Of a stretch of DNA of 64,000 nt, positions 48,967 through 56,538 are shown in pieces (position 1 is the stretch's first letter; every line of letters begins with the position of its first letter). The notes below the pieces were generated by a model. The model searched no databases and had not been told where the DNA came from. It worked only from the letters and a program-made list of their open reading frames with translations. The stretch is taken from positions 634,894 to 698,893 of the forward strand of contig NZ_JAEPPI010000003.1 in assembly GCF_017641085.1 (NCBI RefSeq), given 5' to 3'. The stretch comes from Gracilimonas sp. Its GTDB lineage: Bacteria > Bacteroidota > Rhodothermia > Balneolales > Balneolaceae. A program made the translations under genes and the position numbers.

Positions 48967-50502
48967 TTATTCGTCGCCGCGGGTAATATTGAGCACATTC
49001 AGAGTCACATCAATGGAAGATGCAGCTCCGAGCCTGTCGGTAGCAATGACCTTAAACGTGGATTCGCCTACCTGTCGTTCGGTTGGCGTCCAGGTAAATT
49101 CCCCGGTTTTCTCGTTAATGGTAGCACCATCCGGCATATCAACACCGATGTATCTGACCAGTGAATTTTGCGGGTTTTCAGGATCAGTAGCATTAAACTG
49201 TAGCGTGTATTCTTCATTAACCGCTATAGAAGTAGAGCGAACCGGACTGAACCGGGGAGGAGCATTAAAAGAGCGCACATCTACAACAAAGCGAGTGCTG
49301 TCGGATTGCCCTTCGGAATTAGTGGCTACAATGCTGAACCAGAAATTTCCAACCTGGTTGATGGTCGGCTGCCAGAAAAAGCCCTGCTTTCGAATTTTGG
49401 CATTCTGTGCATTAGATCGATATGAAAACTCAACCTGATCTGTCGGATAATTCCCTTCCATTTCAAAAGCTAAAATAAGCGGATTTGGATAGGTTATTAT
49501 CTGTTTGGGAATTGGTTTTATGCTGAATTCACCGGAAGCGGAGGTGTTGGATTCGGATGATTGCTCGCGCATCATAATTTCAGAGATATTGTCATTTTCT
49601 GAAATCCAAATTCGGTTGGCGCTGTTGGCGAGGTAATTTCCTGCACGGGTATCATCCTTCCATATGCCGAGAAGACCGGATTCATCGGTTGTCCAAACAC
49701 GGCCGGATACCGTTCTCACAAAAAGCCGTCCATTCCAGCTGGAAATGTGATCAACGGACTCGTTGGTAACGCCAATTTTTTTCCCGATTCCGGTGGATCT
49801 TATCTCAAAAATCTCTCCGGTAGCAGTGCTTCCCCAAACCTGTTCCTGATCTACAAAGATGTGCTCCAAAGGCCTGCGTAACGAAATATTGGCTGAGTTT
49901 TGCAGGGTGCTATCCTGTTGATTGAAAACGAGGAGGGAAGGAGCATCGGTAAGTACAAAAAGCTGATTGCTTAGGTTGGATGAGCTTAAATCCATAACGC
50001 TTGCTCCGTTCATGAAACTCCCGGCCACAATCTCGGGATCAGAGTCCACTGTTTCCGGGGATTCCAGAGAAACACGGCCCAAACCTTCTTCTCCCAATGC
50101 TATATATAAACTGTTTTTTAAACGGGCGGCAGCTTTGGGCTGAGCGGGCAAGATGGTGGATGAATAAACCCCTAATACCGAGGTAGGTTCAAGAACGGTG
50201 AGTCTTCTCGAATCTCCGAACAGGTAAGCAAAACGGATGTCGGCCATAATGATATTTCCGCGACGCTGCATACCGGAAGAAGTATAAAGCCATTGCAGCG
50301 AATCAGGGTAGGCTCTGAATACAGCCATGCCTTCACTTTCGGATAGCACATACAAATGAGAAGGAGAAGCTTCCATCGTCTTTACATCCGGGATTTCCAT
50401 CATCCGGGCATAATTCTGCACCAGTTTTTGCTGCCCCATAGCCTGCGAAATACAGATGAACACAAGTGTAAGTATCAGGGTAATCCTTGAAATAAGTTTC
50501 AT
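48967..50502 (-). CDS. Exported protein with beta-propeller-like and cadherin/Ig-like domains
   Basis: About 511 residues from ATG 50502, which gives the signal peptide MKLISRITLILTLVFICISQAMGQ; the frame to 50571 adds a leader from the previous gene. Residues about 35-300 contain short repeats such as LYVLSESEGMAVFRAYPD and LFVLTDAPSLLVFNQQDS, as in a beta-propeller. Two He_PIG/cadherin-like domains follow (about 330-430 and 430-520), the second with PPRFSPVRSTSIAVNEEYTLQFNATDPENP ... DGATINEKTGEFTWTPTERQVG. It probably sits in the periplasm or at the cell surface. No enzyme motif seen. Four bases separate it from the epimerase stop. Confidence 0.75.
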   Translation of the reverse strand: MKLISRITLILTLVFICISQAMGQQKLVQNYARMMEIPDVKTMEASPSHLYVLSESEGMAVFRAYPDSLQWLYTSSGMQRRGNIIMADIRFAYLFGDSRRLTVLEPTSVLGVYSSTILPAQPKAAARLKNSLYIALGEEGLGRVSLESPETVDSDPEIVAGSFMNGASVMDLSSSNLSNQLFVLTDAPSLLVFNQQDSTLQNSANISLRRPLEHIFVDQEQVWGSTATGEIFEIRSTGIGKKIGVTNESVDHISSWNGRLFVRTVSGRVWTTDESGLLGIWKDDTRAGNYLANSANRIWISENDNISEIMMREQSSESNTSASGEFSIKPIPKQIITYPNPLILAFEMEGNYPTDQVEFSYRSNAQNAKIRKQGFFWQPTINQVGNFWFSIVATNSEGQSDSTRFVVDVRSFNAPPRFSPVRSTSIAVNEEYTLQFNATDPENPQNSLVRYIGVDMPDGATINEKTGEFTWTPTERQVGESTFKVIATDRLGAASSIDVTLNVLNITRGDE

Positions 50503-50506
50503 ATCA

Positions 50507-51481
50507 CTATAACCAGTTATGCATTTTGTACCAGTGGATGGTTCGGGAGATTCCCTCAGCCAGCGAAACATCAGGAGTATAGTCTAAATCTTTGTGAGCT
50601 TTATCGGAGGTGCAGGTCCATTCCAATATCAGCTCATTTGCTTTCTCCTTGTTAATAACGGGATATTTTCCAATTAATGATGCCACGTTTTCTATTACAC
50701 CTGCCGCTTTTTTAACCAATCCGGGTTTAATTTTGACCGGGATCGCTTTTTTGCCCATTACTTTGGAGGTGACAGCACGAATCTCGTTCCAGGAATGGGT
50801 GCCTTCCCCGGAAATAAAATAAGTATGGACGCCTGTATCTTTTTTATGAGCAGCCTGCATAATCCCGTTCACTAAATCACTAACATACACCATCGAAAGG
50901 CGGGGATTGTTCCCATCGCCTACAATCGGGCAAATACCTTTTGAGAACGCCTGGAAGAAAGAGAAAATCTGGTCTTCACGGGGTCCATATACTGCAGGCG
51001 GGCGGATGATTTTTATACTGTCCTTCCCACTCACCGCTTTATGAATACGGGCCTCCATCTCTTTCTTTGACTCCCCATACATACTCACAGGGTTCATAGG
51101 TTCCCCTTCTGTTTTGGGTGAACCGTTACTGGGACCGGCGGCAGCTAATGAGGATAAAATCATCATGTTCCTGACACCTTTTTTTTGAGCCAGGCGGACA
51201 AGATCCTCTGTGGCATCAACATTGGCGTGGGTAAATTCTTTTTTGGTGGGAGCTTTTACAATGGCTGCAATGTGAAATAATACATCAGCACCCTCAAGTC
51301 CTTTTGATAAGGCATTTAAATTTTGAAGGTCTCCCGGCACTTTTTTGAAATCAAGGCCACTCAGCCATTTCTCATCACTTCTTACCAGGCAGCGTACTTC
51401 ATCGTAGTCGTCAGATTTGATTAGAGCTTCAACTAAATGGCTTCCTATAAAACCTGTTCCTCCGGTTACAAAGGCTTTCAT
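50507..51481 (-). CDS. NAD-dependent epimerase/dehydratase (possible CerR-like reductase)
   Basis: 324 residues. Cofactor loop FVTGGTGFIGSHLVEAL at the N-terminus, ADVLFHIAAIV, the Ser in MILSSLAAAGPSN, and YGESKKEME for the catalytic YxxxK. C-terminal substrate region includes RLSMVYVSDLVNGIMQAA. It is an extended SDR. In Caulobacter a related reductase (CerR) acts in ceramide synthesis; the nearby SPT and GNAT genes make that role plausible here, but it could equally act on sugar nucleotides. First gene of the minus-strand operon with the Ig-domain protein and mutY. Confidence 0.85.
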   Translation of the reverse strand: MKAFVTGGTGFIGSHLVEALIKSDDYDEVRCLVRSDEKWLSGLDFKKVPGDLQNLNALSKGLEGADVLFHIAAIVKAPTKKEFTHANVDATEDLVRLAQKKGVRNMMILSSLAAAGPSNGSPKTEGEPMNPVSMYGESKKEMEARIHKAVSGKDSIKIIRPPAVYGPREDQIFSFFQAFSKGICPIVGDGNNPRLSMVYVSDLVNGIMQAAHKKDTGVHTYFISGEGTHSWNEIRAVTSKVMGKKAIPVKIKPGLVKKAAGVIENVASLIGKYPVINKEKANELILEWTCTSDKAHKDLDYTPDVSLAEGISRTIHWYKMHNWL

Positions 51482-51586
51482 TTATTTCCTTATATTTGGC
51501 GAATCGTTTGGAATAAAAAAGAGTTTACAGCGAGGATCATCGCAGAGCAAATAAGATACAAATCTACCCTCTGCTTTTAAATTTTT

Positions 51587-52747
51587 ATGAAAGAATTACG
51601 AGTCGCCCTTTTTACAGGCAACTACAATCACATTAAAGACGGTGTTTCACTTACCCTGAATCGGTTGGTGAAGTTTTTGGAAGAGCAGGGGATACCGGTT
51701 TTGGTTTTCGGGCCAACGGTTAAGGAGCCTGCGCTTAATCACAACGGACGACTGGTTTCGGTGCCATCCATCCGTATGCCGGTTTCCGGGCGGGGAGAGT
51801 ACCGGGTACCGATTGGGATCTCGGAAGAGGCAAAAAGGGAATTAGATGAATTTAATCCCACCCTGGTTCACATCGCAACGCCCGATCGTGCCGGATACAA
51901 GGCCTTACTTTGGGCACAGAAAAACAATGTGCAGGTAGTGGGTTCCTATCACACTCACTTCACCAGCTACTTTAAATACTATGGCCTTACGCCTATAGAA
52001 TTTCTGGCGTGGAGGTATTTGAGCTGGTTCTATAATTCCTGCACACACGTGTATGTGCCTTCACAATCGATGATTGATGAATTGAAAAATCATGGTTTCG
52101 AGGATGGGATGAAAATCTGGGCCCGTGGGGTAAATACAAAACTATACTCTCCTGAAAAACGGGATATGGAATGGCGCAGAGCAGCAGGGTTTGAAGACGA
52201 TGATATTGTTGTCACGTTTGTATCGCGCCTGGTGTGGGAAAAAGAGCTGGATACATTCCGGCACAGTGTACAGCAAGTGGCCTCAAAAAATCCAAAAGTA
52301 AAACCTCTTGTGGTTGGCGACGGACCTGCAATGGCCGAACTGCAGAAATTAATGCCGGAAGCCCATTACACCGGTTTTCTGGAAGGTGAAAACCTGGCAA
52401 GAGCTTATGCCAGCAGTGATGTTTTTCTATTTCCCTCCCATACCGAAACCTTCGGAAATGTTACACTGGAAGCCATGAGCAGTGGTTTGCCCTGCCTGGT
52501 TGCAGATGCCACCGGAAGTAAATCATTAGTAGAACACGGGGTAAACGGTGGCTTAGCTGAGCCGGAGAATAAAGTGGATTTCGTGAAAAAATTATCCATC
52601 ATTGTTTCGGATCAAAGCCTTCGCGACAAAATGCGAAAAGCCTCCCGGGAAAAAGCACTCGAATATGAGTGGGATGAAATTAATGGTCAGCTGGTCCAAA
52701 ATTATAAAGAAGCTTTAAAACTCCCGGTTCCGCAAACCTATTTATAA
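51587..52747 (+). CDS. GT4 family glycosyltransferase (SQD2/MgtA-like)
   Basis: 386 residues, GT-B fold. N-terminal domain RVALFTGNYNHIKDGVSLTLNRLVKFLEEQGIPVLVFGP; C-terminal nucleotide-sugar domain with VTFVSRLVWEKELDTFRHSV, VGDGPAMAELQKLMPEAHYTGFLEGENLARAYASSDVFLFPSHTETFGNVTLEAMSSGLP (the EX7E motif). The closest remembered relatives act on lipids (diacylglycerol or phosphatidylinositol). It is followed 13 bp later by a second glycosyltransferase; divergent from the epimerase. Acceptor unknown; a lipid is likely. Confidence 0.88.
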   Translation: MKELRVALFTGNYNHIKDGVSLTLNRLVKFLEEQGIPVLVFGPTVKEPALNHNGRLVSVPSIRMPVSGRGEYRVPIGISEEAKRELDEFNPTLVHIATPDRAGYKALLWAQKNNVQVVGSYHTHFTSYFKYYGLTPIEFLAWRYLSWFYNSCTHVYVPSQSMIDELKNHGFEDGMKIWARGVNTKLYSPEKRDMEWRRAAGFEDDDIVVTFVSRLVWEKELDTFRHSVQQVASKNPKVKPLVVGDGPAMAELQKLMPEAHYTGFLEGENLARAYASSDVFLFPSHTETFGNVTLEAMSSGLPCLVADATGSKSLVEHGVNGGLAEPENKVDFVKKLSIIVSDQSLRDKMRKASREKALEYEWDEINGQLVQNYKEALKLPVPQTYL

Positions 52748-52760
52748 AGAAATTTAGTCC

Positions 52761-53936
52761 ATGAAAATCATAGACGTCGCAGAGTTTTATACAGATCAGG
52801 GTGGAGGGGTGAAAACCTACATCAATCAGAAGCTGCAAGCCGGAAAAAAGCATGGCCATGATATTGTAATTGTAGCTCCCGGCGAAGACTGGGGTGAAGA
52901 AGAGCGCTATGGCGGGAGGGTGATTTGGGTGAAAGGCCCGCGACTGCCGGTAGATTGGCGCTACTACATTCTATGGAGAGAAAAAGCCGTGCATGAAATT
53001 CTGGATCGTGAAAAGCCCGATGTAGTTGAAGGTTCTTCGCCGTGGACCGGTGGCTGGTTTGCCGGGCGCTGGAAAGGTGATGCTGTGAAGACCTTCATTT
53101 TTCATCAGGATCCGGTTGCGGCTTACCCTCATACTATATTTGGGAATATACTTGGTTTTGACCGTGTTGATAAGCTCTTCGGATTCTACTGGAAATACCT
53201 GCAAAGGCTTAGTAGTAATTTTGATGCCACCATTGTAAGTGGAGAATGGCTGGGCGAGCGGATTGACAATTATGGAGTGAACAACCCCATTCCGGTTCCA
53301 TTTGGAATAGATAAAGACTTCTTCTCACCAAGCCGAAGAGATCCCGAGCTTCGGAAAAAACTGTTATCCGATTTCGGGTTACCGGAAACCGCAAAGTTGA
53401 TGATTGCCATCAGTCGCCACCATCCTGAAAAAAGACTGGGTTCTCTTATCGGCGGGTTTCATGCAGCTGCTGAAGAAGAGCCCATGGCCCTGATTGTTTT
53501 CGGGGATGGCCCCATCCGTAAGTATGTGGACTTTAAAGCGAACCAAAGCCCGCACGTTAAGCTGATGGGTTTTACCGAAAACCGGGATGAGCTGGCGAAC
53601 ATCCTTGCTTCGTGCGATTACTTTGTGCACGGTTCTTCAGCAGAAACCTATGGTATTGTGGTAGCCGAGGCGGTATGCAGTGGCTTGCCGGTGGTTGTTC
53701 CCCAAAGAGGGGGAGCCGGTGATATTGCCAATCCCGATATTGCTGAAACCTTTACAGCCGGAGATTCTTCATCCCTTAAAAAAGCCCTGCTGGATATTAT
53801 CTCCAGAGATCGGGACGAGCTGGTTGCTGCATGTAAACTGGCGGCAAGTGAAGACATAGGAACGATGGATGACCACTTTAAACTTCTGTTTAAGAAATAT
53901 GAACAATTGGTAGAACAGAAAAATACGGTTCTGTAA
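52761..53936 (+). CDS. GT4 family glycosyltransferase
   Basis: 391 residues, GT-B fold. GGGVKTYINQKLQAGKKHGHDIVIVAPG gives the N-terminal glycine loop; the donor domain has AISRHHPEKRLGSLIGGFHAA, VFGDGPIRKYV and CDYFVHGSSAETYGIVVAEAVCSGLPVVVPQRGGAGDIA (EX7E). Only distantly similar to the preceding enzyme, so they probably add different sugars in sequence. The pair is cotranscribed (13-bp gap). It precedes the SPT gene by about 200 bp. Confidence 0.88.
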   Translation: MKIIDVAEFYTDQGGGVKTYINQKLQAGKKHGHDIVIVAPGEDWGEEERYGGRVIWVKGPRLPVDWRYYILWREKAVHEILDREKPDVVEGSSPWTGGWFAGRWKGDAVKTFIFHQDPVAAYPHTIFGNILGFDRVDKLFGFYWKYLQRLSSNFDATIVSGEWLGERIDNYGVNNPIPVPFGIDKDFFSPSRRDPELRKKLLSDFGLPETAKLMIAISRHHPEKRLGSLIGGFHAAAEEEPMALIVFGDGPIRKYVDFKANQSPHVKLMGFTENRDELANILASCDYFVHGSSAETYGIVVAEAVCSGLPVVVPQRGGAGDIANPDIAETFTAGDSSSLKKALLDIISRDRDELVAACKLAASEDIGTMDDHFKLLFKKYEQLVEQKNTVL

Positions 53937-54151
53937 ACGCTGAAAGTGGAATTTTTGAATTCTGTGAATTTTGATGTTATTTACACTGTTTAGAATTCAG
54001 TAGCAGACCGATATATTTCTTATCTTCAGCACGAAATTAAACTTATTTTACAGCGACCAGTTCTTAACCACGAGTTAGCGAAAATTTGATAGAAATTTAA
54101 TACTGGCTATATTTCGCTGTTTATTTAGAATCTTTGTTAAGGAATTACCGA

Positions 54152-55390
54152 ATGGCCGACCAAAAATCCAGCGCCACAAAATCAGACATTTTTTCGAAGG
54201 CTTTTAATTTCACAAAAGCGGATGAAGTCAAAGAAATGGGGCTGTATCCGTACTTTAAACCTCTCGAAGCAACGGACGGTACAATTGTTGAAATCGAAGG
54301 TAAAAAAGTAATTATGGCCGGGTCTAATAATTATTTGGGCCTCACCAACGATCAGCGCACGATTAAAGCAGCTCAGGATGCCCTCAAAAAATATGGTACA
54401 GGATGTACCGGCTCTCGCTATCTAAACGGTACACTCGACAGTCACCTCGAACTGGAGGATAAGCTAGCCAAGTTTATGGGCAAAGAAGGGTGTGTGCTTT
54501 TCAGTACCGGTTATCAAACCAATGAAGGCGCTATACAGACCATTGCCGATCGTAACGATATTATTTTCTCAGATAAAGACAACCACGCCTGTATTGTAGT
54601 GGGTACTCTTGTTTCGAACGCTAAGACCATGCGTTATAAGCATAATGACATGGATCAGCTACGAAAACTCCTTGAAAGAGCCGATCCTGACGCCGGAAAA
54701 ATCATTGTAACTGATGGGGTATTTTCAATGTCAGGAACACTGGCTAAAGTACCCGAACTGGTTAAGTTGGCCAAGGAATTTAATGCCCGATTATATCTTG
54801 ATGATGCTCATGCTGTTGGAGTAGTTGGAGACGGTGGAAGAGGATCAGCATCTGTATTTGGATTGACCGATGAAGTCGACTTGATTAGCGGAACATTCTC
54901 AAAATCATTTGCGTCCCTTGGAGGGTTTTTAGTAGGGGATCGTCCTGTAATTGAATACATACGTCATAAATCACCGGCGCATATATTTAGTGCATCCATG
55001 CCACCCGCTAATGTGGCAACGGTACTTAAAGTTCTGGAGATTCTTCAGGAAGAAACCTGGAGATTGGACCGTCTCGAAGAAATTGCCAATTACATGCGTA
55101 AAGAACTGCGAGGCTTAGGATTTAATGTATGGAGCAGTCAGAGTCCAATCATCCCTGTTGTAATTGGGGAAATGATGGACTGTTTCAAATTCTGGAAAGA
55201 TCTGTTTGAGGAAGGCGTTTATACGAATGCGGTTGTTCCACCGGCTGTGCCACAAGGGCAGTCGCTGCTGCGAACAAGTTATATGGCAAGTCATACAGAC
55301 GAACATCTCGATCAAATTCTGGAGGCATTTCGTAAAGTAGGCTTAAAACACGGCGTGATTGACAGAAATGGCCATTCAGCAACCGAATAA
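54152..55390 (+). CDS. spt: Serine palmitoyltransferase-like alpha-oxoamine synthase
   Basis: 412 residues. ATG 54152 with AAGGA nine bases upstream; the TTG at 54134 would merely add six residues. PLP enzyme condensing serine with an acyl-CoA to 3-ketosphinganine if the SPT call is right. Motifs: GLYPYFKPLEATDGTIVEIEGKKVIMAGSNNYLGLT, YGTGCTGSRYLNGTLDSHLELE, DKDNHACIV (His 145, stacks on PLP), LYLDDAHAVGVVGDGGRG, and SGTFSKSFASLGGF with the PLP Lys near 251. GLYPYF and IMAGSNNYLGLT are typical of Bacteroidota SPT; alternatives are KBL or BioF. The following GNAT gene supports sphingolipid synthesis. Confidence 0.8.
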   Translation: MADQKSSATKSDIFSKAFNFTKADEVKEMGLYPYFKPLEATDGTIVEIEGKKVIMAGSNNYLGLTNDQRTIKAAQDALKKYGTGCTGSRYLNGTLDSHLELEDKLAKFMGKEGCVLFSTGYQTNEGAIQTIADRNDIIFSDKDNHACIVVGTLVSNAKTMRYKHNDMDQLRKLLERADPDAGKIIVTDGVFSMSGTLAKVPELVKLAKEFNARLYLDDAHAVGVVGDGGRGSASVFGLTDEVDLISGTFSKSFASLGGFLVGDRPVIEYIRHKSPAHIFSASMPPANVATVLKVLEILQEETWRLDRLEEIANYMRKELRGLGFNVWSSQSPIIPVVIGEMMDCFKFWKDLFEEGVYTNAVVPPAVPQGQSLLRTSYMASHTDEHLDQILEAFRKVGLKHGVIDRNGHSATE

Positions 55391-55413
55391 ACCCTTAATC
55401 TTACCAAGGCTGC

Positions 55414-56538
55414 ATGAATAGTTCCGGGGTAACCTTTGTTTCGACTAAAGAGGAAAAGAAACGGTTCACGAACTTCATATACCCTTTTTATGAAGGTGAA
55501 GAGCACTGGGTTCCCCCATTGCGTATGGATCAGAAAAAACTGATTGATACCAATAAAAATCCCTTTTTTAACAATGCTGAAATAGCTTTGTTCCTTGCTG
55601 AGAAAGATGGCAAAGACGTAGGCCGGATTGCAGCTATTATTGACCATCGTTTCAATGAATTTCACGGTACAAAAACCGGTCATTTCGGCTTCTTTGAAAG
55701 CATAAACGATCAGCACACTACAAACTTACTTTTTCGGGTAGCTGAAGACTGGCTTCGAGATAAAGGGATGAATAAAGTGGTGGGACCAGCCAGCCCGAGT
55801 ATGATGGATACGATTGGCGTATTGATAGACGGTTTTGATAAAGATCCGTACATCATGATGCCTTATAACTTTTCCTATTATGATGAGCTGATTAAGAACG
55901 CCGGATTCCAAAAAGAGATGGACATGTATGCCTACATCGTGGATACGGAAACCGTGGCGGTAGAACGGATGAACAGGGCAATGGAAATTGTTAAAAAAAG
56001 GCTTCCCGATATCGAAATTCGTCCTGTGAATCTGAAGAAAATGGATTCTGAGATTAAGATTGTCCGTGAGATCTTCAACAAGGCCTGGAAAGATAACTGG
56101 GGTTTCATCCCACTAACAGAAGAAGAATTTCAGGCGGCGGGCAAAGACCTGAAAATGATTGTGGATACCGATTACGCTCACATTGCTGAGATCAAAGGTG
56201 AACCGGTAGCTTTCTCCATCGGACTTCCCAATATCAACGAGATTCTCAAAGACATGAATGGAAAGCTCTTTCCATTTGGGTTTATCAAGCTGCTGTGGGG
56301 CAAAAGCAGGGTGCAAGGACTCCGGACGGCATTAATGGGAGTTTTACCGGAATGGCAGGGCAAAGGTATCGATGCTCTTCTTCATCAGCGTTCGATCCAA
56401 AACGGGCTGGAAACCGAAGGTAAAACCATCTCTGAACTAAGCTGGATTCTGGAATCTAACCCGGAGATGATTCGCGTTGCAGAACGCATCGGCGGTACGT
56501 TGGATAAAACCTACCGGATGTATGCTAAAGAGTTGTAG
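55414..56538 (+). CDS. GNAT-like N-acyltransferase (candidate bacterial ceramide synthase)
   Basis: 374 residues. FIYPFYEGEEHWVPPLRMDQKKLIDTNKNPFF and FLAEKDGKDVGRIAAIIDHRFNEF mark a large GNAT-like family with two GNAT folds. FSYYDELIKNAGFQKEMDMYAYIVD and MGVLPEWQGKGIDALLHQRS (a Q/RxxGxG/A-like acetyl/acyl-CoA loop) follow. It is 23 bp after the SPT-like gene and probably cotranscribed. In Caulobacter the bacterial ceramide synthase bCerS is also an acyltransferase of this general kind, so N-acylation of 3-ketosphinganine is a reasonable guess. Not proven by sequence alone. Confidence 0.7.
   Translation: MNSSGVTFVSTKEEKKRFTNFIYPFYEGEEHWVPPLRMDQKKLIDTNKNPFFNNAEIALFLAEKDGKDVGRIAAIIDHRFNEFHGTKTGHFGFFESINDQHTTNLLFRVAEDWLRDKGMNKVVGPASPSMMDTIGVLIDGFDKDPYIMMPYNFSYYDELIKNAGFQKEMDMYAYIVDTETVAVERMNRAMEIVKKRLPDIEIRPVNLKKMDSEIKIVREIFNKAWKDNWGFIPLTEEEFQAAGKDLKMIVDTDYAHIAEIKGEPVAFSIGLPNINEILKDMNGKLFPFGFIKLLWGKSRVQGLRTALMGVLPEWQGKGIDALLHQRSIQNGLETEGKTISELSWILESNPEMIRVAERIGGTLDKTYRMYAKEL

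Follow-up and report, generated by a model that had tools for sequence, protein, structure and literature searches.

A probable dihydroceramide locus with candidate glycosyltransferases in Gracilimonas and its relatives in the Balneolales

Ceramide is a lipid core well known from the skin and brain of animals. In Caulobacter and the sphingomonads, its genes form the cluster aasR-cerR-acpR-spt, with cerS nearby (CC_1165-CC_1162 and CC_1154), and acylation has been proposed to come before reduction in Caulobacter. Sphingomonads are also known as makers of glycosphingolipids. The Caulobacter glycosyltransferases Sgt1 and then Sgt2 act sequentially on ceramide (PMC6445935). According to a passage in PMC11334938 that cites an earlier observation, the three ceramide genes of Bacteroidota do not lie near one another. 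A 64,000-nt stretch of DNA from Gracilimonas (order Balneolales, class Rhodothermia in GTDB), hereafter the window, contains a five-gene locus encoding an extended short-chain dehydrogenase/reductase (SDR), two GT4 glycosyltransferases (GT_A and GT_B), a pyridoxal phosphate (PLP) enzyme resembling serine palmitoyltransferase (SPT), and a GNAT protein homologous to the bacterial ceramide synthase bCerS. Gene content, family placement, linkage, and co-occurrence make it highly probable that this locus directs the synthesis of dihydroceramide, which it probably also glycosylates. The pathway itself is of a known bacterial kind, and the arrangement of the genes makes the idea of sugar decoration directly testable.

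By its position in the tree, its active-site residues, and its closest solved structure, the PLP enzyme is a Bacteroidota-type SPT, presumably with a preference for serine. A search of the PDB retrieved the SPT of Sphingobacterium multivorum as the closest structure (E 7e-123), followed by weaker matches to Thermus KBL/BioF (1e-86), E. coli KBL (1e-77), and a cysteate acyltransferase (2e-66). The first-pass annotation had named an SPT-like enzyme, with a best alignment to KBL as the counter-evidence to look for; the best alignment proved to be with S. multivorum SPT and not with KBL. In a tree of 39 rows, the enzyme groups with the SPTs of S. multivorum and Parabacteroides (support 81/85) and with that of Aureispira (98/95); two tdh-adjacent KBLs, two BioFs, and the cysteate clade all stand apart from it. 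The PLP lysine K257 is kept together with H151, D223, H226, R380, and N65, all of them matching S. multivorum SPT. Lysine at position 281 of SulA has been proposed to distinguish cysteate enzymes from SPT (PMC9304779). This column holds Lys in all cysteate enzymes of the set and A287 in the window enzyme. Translation likely starts at the ATG at 54152, preceded by AAGGA, rather than at the TTG at 54134.

The GNAT protein is a bCerS homologue as judged from full-length alignments, and is predicted to N-acylate the long-chain base. It is 37.9% identical over its full length (about 375 aa) to the bCerS-position protein of the SPT/acyl carrier protein (ACP)/SDR/LptFG cluster of Sphingomonas parapaucimobilis, and 39.1% identical, also over the full length, to YghO from the equivalent cluster of E. 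coli. The Sphingomonas and E. coli proteins share 39.3%, a value similar to their identity with the window protein. When the Sphingomonas protein was used as query, the window GNAT was the best match in the genome (E 4e-76), ahead of a paralogue at C1:182187 (E 2e-27), and the earlier suggestion of a bCerS-type acyltransferase is borne out by these comparisons. The AlphaFold model displays a tandem GNAT (mean pLDDT 84), with a tandem-repeat GNAT as top PDB match. Full-length homologues are present in the SPT clusters of Sphingomonas, E. coli, Rubrobacter, Aureispira, and Streptomyces. The spt gene directly precedes the bCerS homologue in all 20 loci read from the order; among 20 loci from other families of the class, the two are direct neighbours in 17, about 6 kb apart in one (L127), and in two the stretch read contains no spt (L132, L138). 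The family was found in 144 of 145 genomes of the class, the single miss being a genome of 89% completeness. In the GNAT tree, 10 of 11 paralogue or solo rows are separated with support, as one clade, from those linked to spt, with poorly supported deep forks.

The paralogue just mentioned (G000:C1:182187-183311, L091) is distant, at 27-29% identity, and lies beside panB, surE, and coaBC. In Chitinophagaceae, related proteins are encoded without an SPT in the vicinity. The paralogue could be a further N-acyltransferase, for instance one for capnine. In one genome of the class, spt is followed by two tandem copies of the bCerS homologue (L140:6948-9846).

The SDR is very probably the keto-reductase of the pathway, in the role of CerR (ceramide/3-ketosphinganine), because it tracks SPT across Bacteroidota, usually as a divergent neighbour. 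It carries TGGTGFIG (TGxxGFIG) at residues 6-13 and YGESK (YxxxK). Its identity is 26% to the CerR proteins of Sphingomonas and E. coli, and 31-36% to the SDRs that accompany SPT-bCerS in Aureispira, Rubrobacter, and Streptomyces; the SDR gene is divergent in the first of these and stands third in the SPT-bCerS operon of the other two. With Sphingomonas CerR as query, the window SDR was the best match in the genome (E 1.8e-20), 16 orders of magnitude ahead of the next (3e-4). Co-occurrence was scored in 198 Bacteroidota genomes (in the GTDB sense) that were at least 95% complete, with thresholds of E<=1e-100 for SPT and E<=1e-38 for SDR. Both genes were present in 144 genomes, SPT only in 4, SDR only in none, and neither in 50. 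The corresponding numbers outside the class were 95, 4, 0, and 50 (Fisher p 2e-35, ignoring shared ancestry), and two of the four genomes scored as having SPT only hold an spt-bcerS-SDR array whose SDR lies slightly under the threshold. In 73 of these 95 genomes, spt and SDR are adjacent and divergent with less than 500 bp between them, the median gap of adjacent pairs being 257 bp; three more have the reductase about 1.2 kb from spt on the same strand. Of 15 SPT loci read from outside the class, 10 had a bCerS homologue next to spt, in one case truncated by the contig end. Contrary to the remark in PMC11334938, spt and the extended SDR mostly stand side by side in divergent orientation in the Bacteroidota genomes sampled.

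The five families had been placed in the first-pass annotation, which had also noted the GNAT gene 23 bp after the SPT gene; positions, strands, and spacing were all confirmed by reading the open reading frames and by Pfam (Table 1). The remaining gaps are 13 bp between GT_A and GT_B and 197 bp between GT_B and SPT. Promoter and terminator scans, including that of the 105-bp region between SDR and GT_A, returned nothing beyond what was obtained with shuffled sequences. SDR, GT_A, SPT, and GNAT occur together in every relative read, across five families of the order. The grouping is therefore not due to chance. The basic arrangement in Bacteroidota is a reductase divergent from spt-bcerS, to which the Balneolales add one or two GT4 genes between reductase and spt.

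Table 1. Genes of the window locus and, in the last row, three-part proteins with a cysteate fatty-acyltransferase (CFAT) part from other Rhodothermia families
Feature	Coordinates	Strand	Basis
Extended SDR	50507-51481	-	PF01370/PF01073
Divergent intergenic region SDR/GT_A, 105 bp	51482-51586	.	read directly
GT_A, GT4 glycosyltransferase, proposed to add the first sugar to ceramide	51587-52747	+	PF13439+PF00534
GT_B, GT4 glycosyltransferase, proposed to add the second sugar	52761-53936	+	PF13439+PF00534
SPT-like PLP enzyme	54134-55390	+	PF00155
bCerS homologue, tandem-GNAT N-acyltransferase (predicted)	55414-56538	+	PF00583, marginal only
Three-part CFAT proteins	L144:3472-6852, L145:2145-5576; also G069, G113, G135, G141

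Directly after the reductase gene, on its strand, lies a gene for a He_PIG/Ig-domain protein with a putative signal peptide (48967-50571, -). Its position is kept in all 19 loci of the order that cover that side.

In the proposed pathway, SPT would condense serine with an acyl thioester to 3-ketosphinganine, the tandem-GNAT bCerS homologue would N-acylate the long-chain base, and the extended SDR would use NAD(P)H to reduce the 3-keto group, yielding dihydroceramide; acylation and reduction could take place in either order. The expectation that this bacterium makes ceramides is supported at the gene level by the SPT, the bCerS homologue, and the SPT-tracking SDR. GT_A, and GT_B where present, would add one or two sugars at the 1-OH, as their position and family suggest. 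Since Caulobacter uses Sgt1 and Sgt2 in sequence, such a two-step model is a reasonable hypothesis. Among retaining families, GT4 alone includes characterised glycosyltransferases for ceramide or diacylglycerol (DAG) (PMC9692976). GT_A adjoins the SDR in 19 of the 19 loci of the order that cover that side. GT_B is 74-99% identical in the loci of the genus that were read, and is missing or replaced by another glycosyltransferase elsewhere in the order. Nearest homologues were searched for in a plasmid collection, where both proteins found their closest relatives among sphingomonad glycosyltransferases (36-39% for GT_A; 35-40% for GT_B, followed by a drop to 28%). No sphingolipid cluster was seen in the surroundings of these homologues that were read. 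The sphingomonad homologues of GT_B (L165-L167) belong to a conserved gene cluster that also encodes a second glycosyltransferase, a polysaccharide deacetylase, and a DUF2141 protein.

Several observations weigh against the proposed pathway or parts of it. Within the order, synteny is about as strong for the secreted Ig protein, for mutY, and, in most loci, for fumC as for the genes under discussion; linkage inside the order alone is therefore weak evidence and was set aside, and the position of the glycosyltransferases counts for the same reason as only moderate evidence. Outside the order, the glycosyltransferases do not adjoin spt in the 20 other loci of the class that were read. The window SPT scores 499.6 with NF047600, the NCBIfam model for Bacteroidota SPT, and so lies below the cut-off of 640, which is a curated equivalog annotation threshold and not a biochemical trait; its amino-acid specificity is consequently not certain. 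The same model gives 729 for S. multivorum and 487 for the Aureispira SPT, which adjoins bCerS and SDR. The SDR tree leaves the deep branches unsupported: a single clade of all operon SDRs is compatible with it (p 0.40), and a clade formed by the window SDRs and the proteobacterial CerR alone is rejected (p 8e-5). The first-pass reading of the epimerase as a CerR-type reductase is supported as to its role by an SDR that tracks SPT and is the best match of Sphingomonas CerR in the genome, direct kinship with Caulobacter CerR being no more than possible. Finally, Caulobacter CerR has been shown experimentally to be periplasmic (PMC11087976), whereas the window SDR begins directly with its Rossmann motif and has no N-terminal signal recognisable by eye.

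The genome also contains a separate CFAT gene (G000:C2:55376-56599; L005:1375-2601, L092). Its product has a FAKSLP motif and matches cysteate C-fatty acyltransferase best in the PDB (E 1e-138). The neighbours are a choice-of-anchor B protein, birA, and secA, with no obvious pathway cluster. CFAT was found in 60 of 60 genomes of the source family, Balneolaceae, in the class sample, and in none of 11 genomes from other families of the order at E<=1e-90. The model for archaeal-type cysteate synthase gave a weak match only, below its cut-off. Since the genome has CFAT, sulfonolipids are likely to be made by the same cells from this unlinked gene, the window locus not being that pathway. In other Rhodothermia families, single proteins of 1126-1143 aa combine a fatty-acyl-AMP ligase and an ACP, both domains recognised by eye, with CFAT; they are possibly self-loading sulfonolipid condensing enzymes.

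Other identities of the PLP enzyme have to be weighed against SPT. Almost no weight can be given to KBL or BioF flanked by unrelated housekeeping genes. The enzymes belong to one superfamily and the KBL model of NCBIfam gives 389 bits, but the SPT model is the best-scoring one, 110 bits higher; KBL and BioF controls exceed their own NCBIfam cut-offs, whereas the window enzyme exceeds none; and the enzyme is constantly paired with a bCerS homologue. Tree, residues, and control scores together rule this identity out. It is likewise very improbable that the locus makes capnine-type sulfonolipids with a PLP enzyme using cysteate. The source family does carry CFAT and its sulfonolipids are likely, but CFAT is a different gene elsewhere, and bCerS and SDR are also present in genomes of the class in which no CFAT was found at E<=1e-90. 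The tree and the Ala in the Lys281 column rule out a cysteate enzyme. A preference for another amino acid, such as alanine or glycine, would lead to 1-deoxyceramides, which a Black Sea study ties to Bacteroidota (PMC11334938), and would fit an SPT score under the curated cut-off. This outcome is improbable, as the catalytic residues tested all agree with those of S. multivorum SPT and glycosylation at C1 needs the 1-OH, missing from deoxy bases.

The acceptor of the glycosyltransferases is a separate matter, since ceramide could be made as proposed while GT_A and GT_B glycosylate DAG, a phospholipid, or a surface polysaccharide. This is a serious possibility, if short of the favoured one. The order-level synteny spans unrelated genes as well, the best NCBIfam matches of both proteins are DAG/PG glycosyltransferases, far below cut-off, and the sphingomonad homologues lie outside the SPT cluster. 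Their genes are nevertheless located between reductase and spt, and the nearest plasmid homologues of both belong to sphingomonads, which do make glycosphingolipids. From position and family, ceramide appears the likeliest acceptor. The first-pass annotation had them glycosylating ceramide "perhaps"; both are GT4 enzymes encoded between reductase and spt, and glycosylation of ceramide is plausible.

If dihydroceramide and its glycosides are the products, (glyco)sphingolipids are predicted for the whole order, for which the literature searched holds no earlier such report. No lipidomic report on Balneolota was found in that literature either, although one may still exist. The analysis singles out one family of reductases whose occurrence parallels that of SPT throughout the Bacteroidota sample. 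As a compact locus in a culturable genus, it is suited to studying ceramide glycosylation, the order of the steps, and the division between serine- and cysteate-derived lipids in one cell. As a tentative and rather speculative extension, the Balneolales might possess a self-contained glycosphingolipid locus, with mono- and diglycosylceramides formed by GT_A and GT_B and with sulfonolipids in addition in the same cells of the main family, and the spt-divergent SDR might be the general cytoplasmic ceramide reductase of Bacteroidota.

The locus resembles the Caulobacter/sphingomonad cluster in its SPT, full-length bCerS homologue, and extended SDR reductase. It differs in that AasR/AcpR and LptF2/G2 are not among its five genes, the glycosyltransferases lie inside, spt and bcerS are in tandem, and the SDR apparently belongs to a separate lineage. 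Bacteroidota SPTs are reported to use acyl-CoA (PMC11324152), so that a dedicated AcpR/AasR pair was not expected among the five genes. Sgt1 and Sgt2 of Caulobacter are comparable as two glycosyltransferases that act one after the other on ceramide, and the B. fragilis ceramide glycosyltransferase BF9343_3149 is comparable by family, being a GT4 enzyme. Alistipes SulA/CFAT shares superfamily and chemistry with the window SPT and has its homologue elsewhere in the genome, but SulA carries Lys at 281 where the window enzyme has Ala. The Bacteroidota SPTs (S. multivorum 8guh/3a2b, Bacteroides BT_0870) fall in the same clade as the window enzyme, with active-site residues matched against S. multivorum. 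In B. thetaiotaomicron, by contrast, the reported 3-ketosphinganine reductase BT_0972, recognised from its resemblance to Tsc10p of yeast, is encoded away from spt (PMC9278070). The plasmid operon of Rubrobacter radiotolerans (L052) likewise has contiguous genes for SPT, bCerS homologue, and SDR; there the SDR runs in the same direction and the operon is free of glycosyltransferases, the genes that the Gracilimonas locus carries between its divergent reductase and spt.

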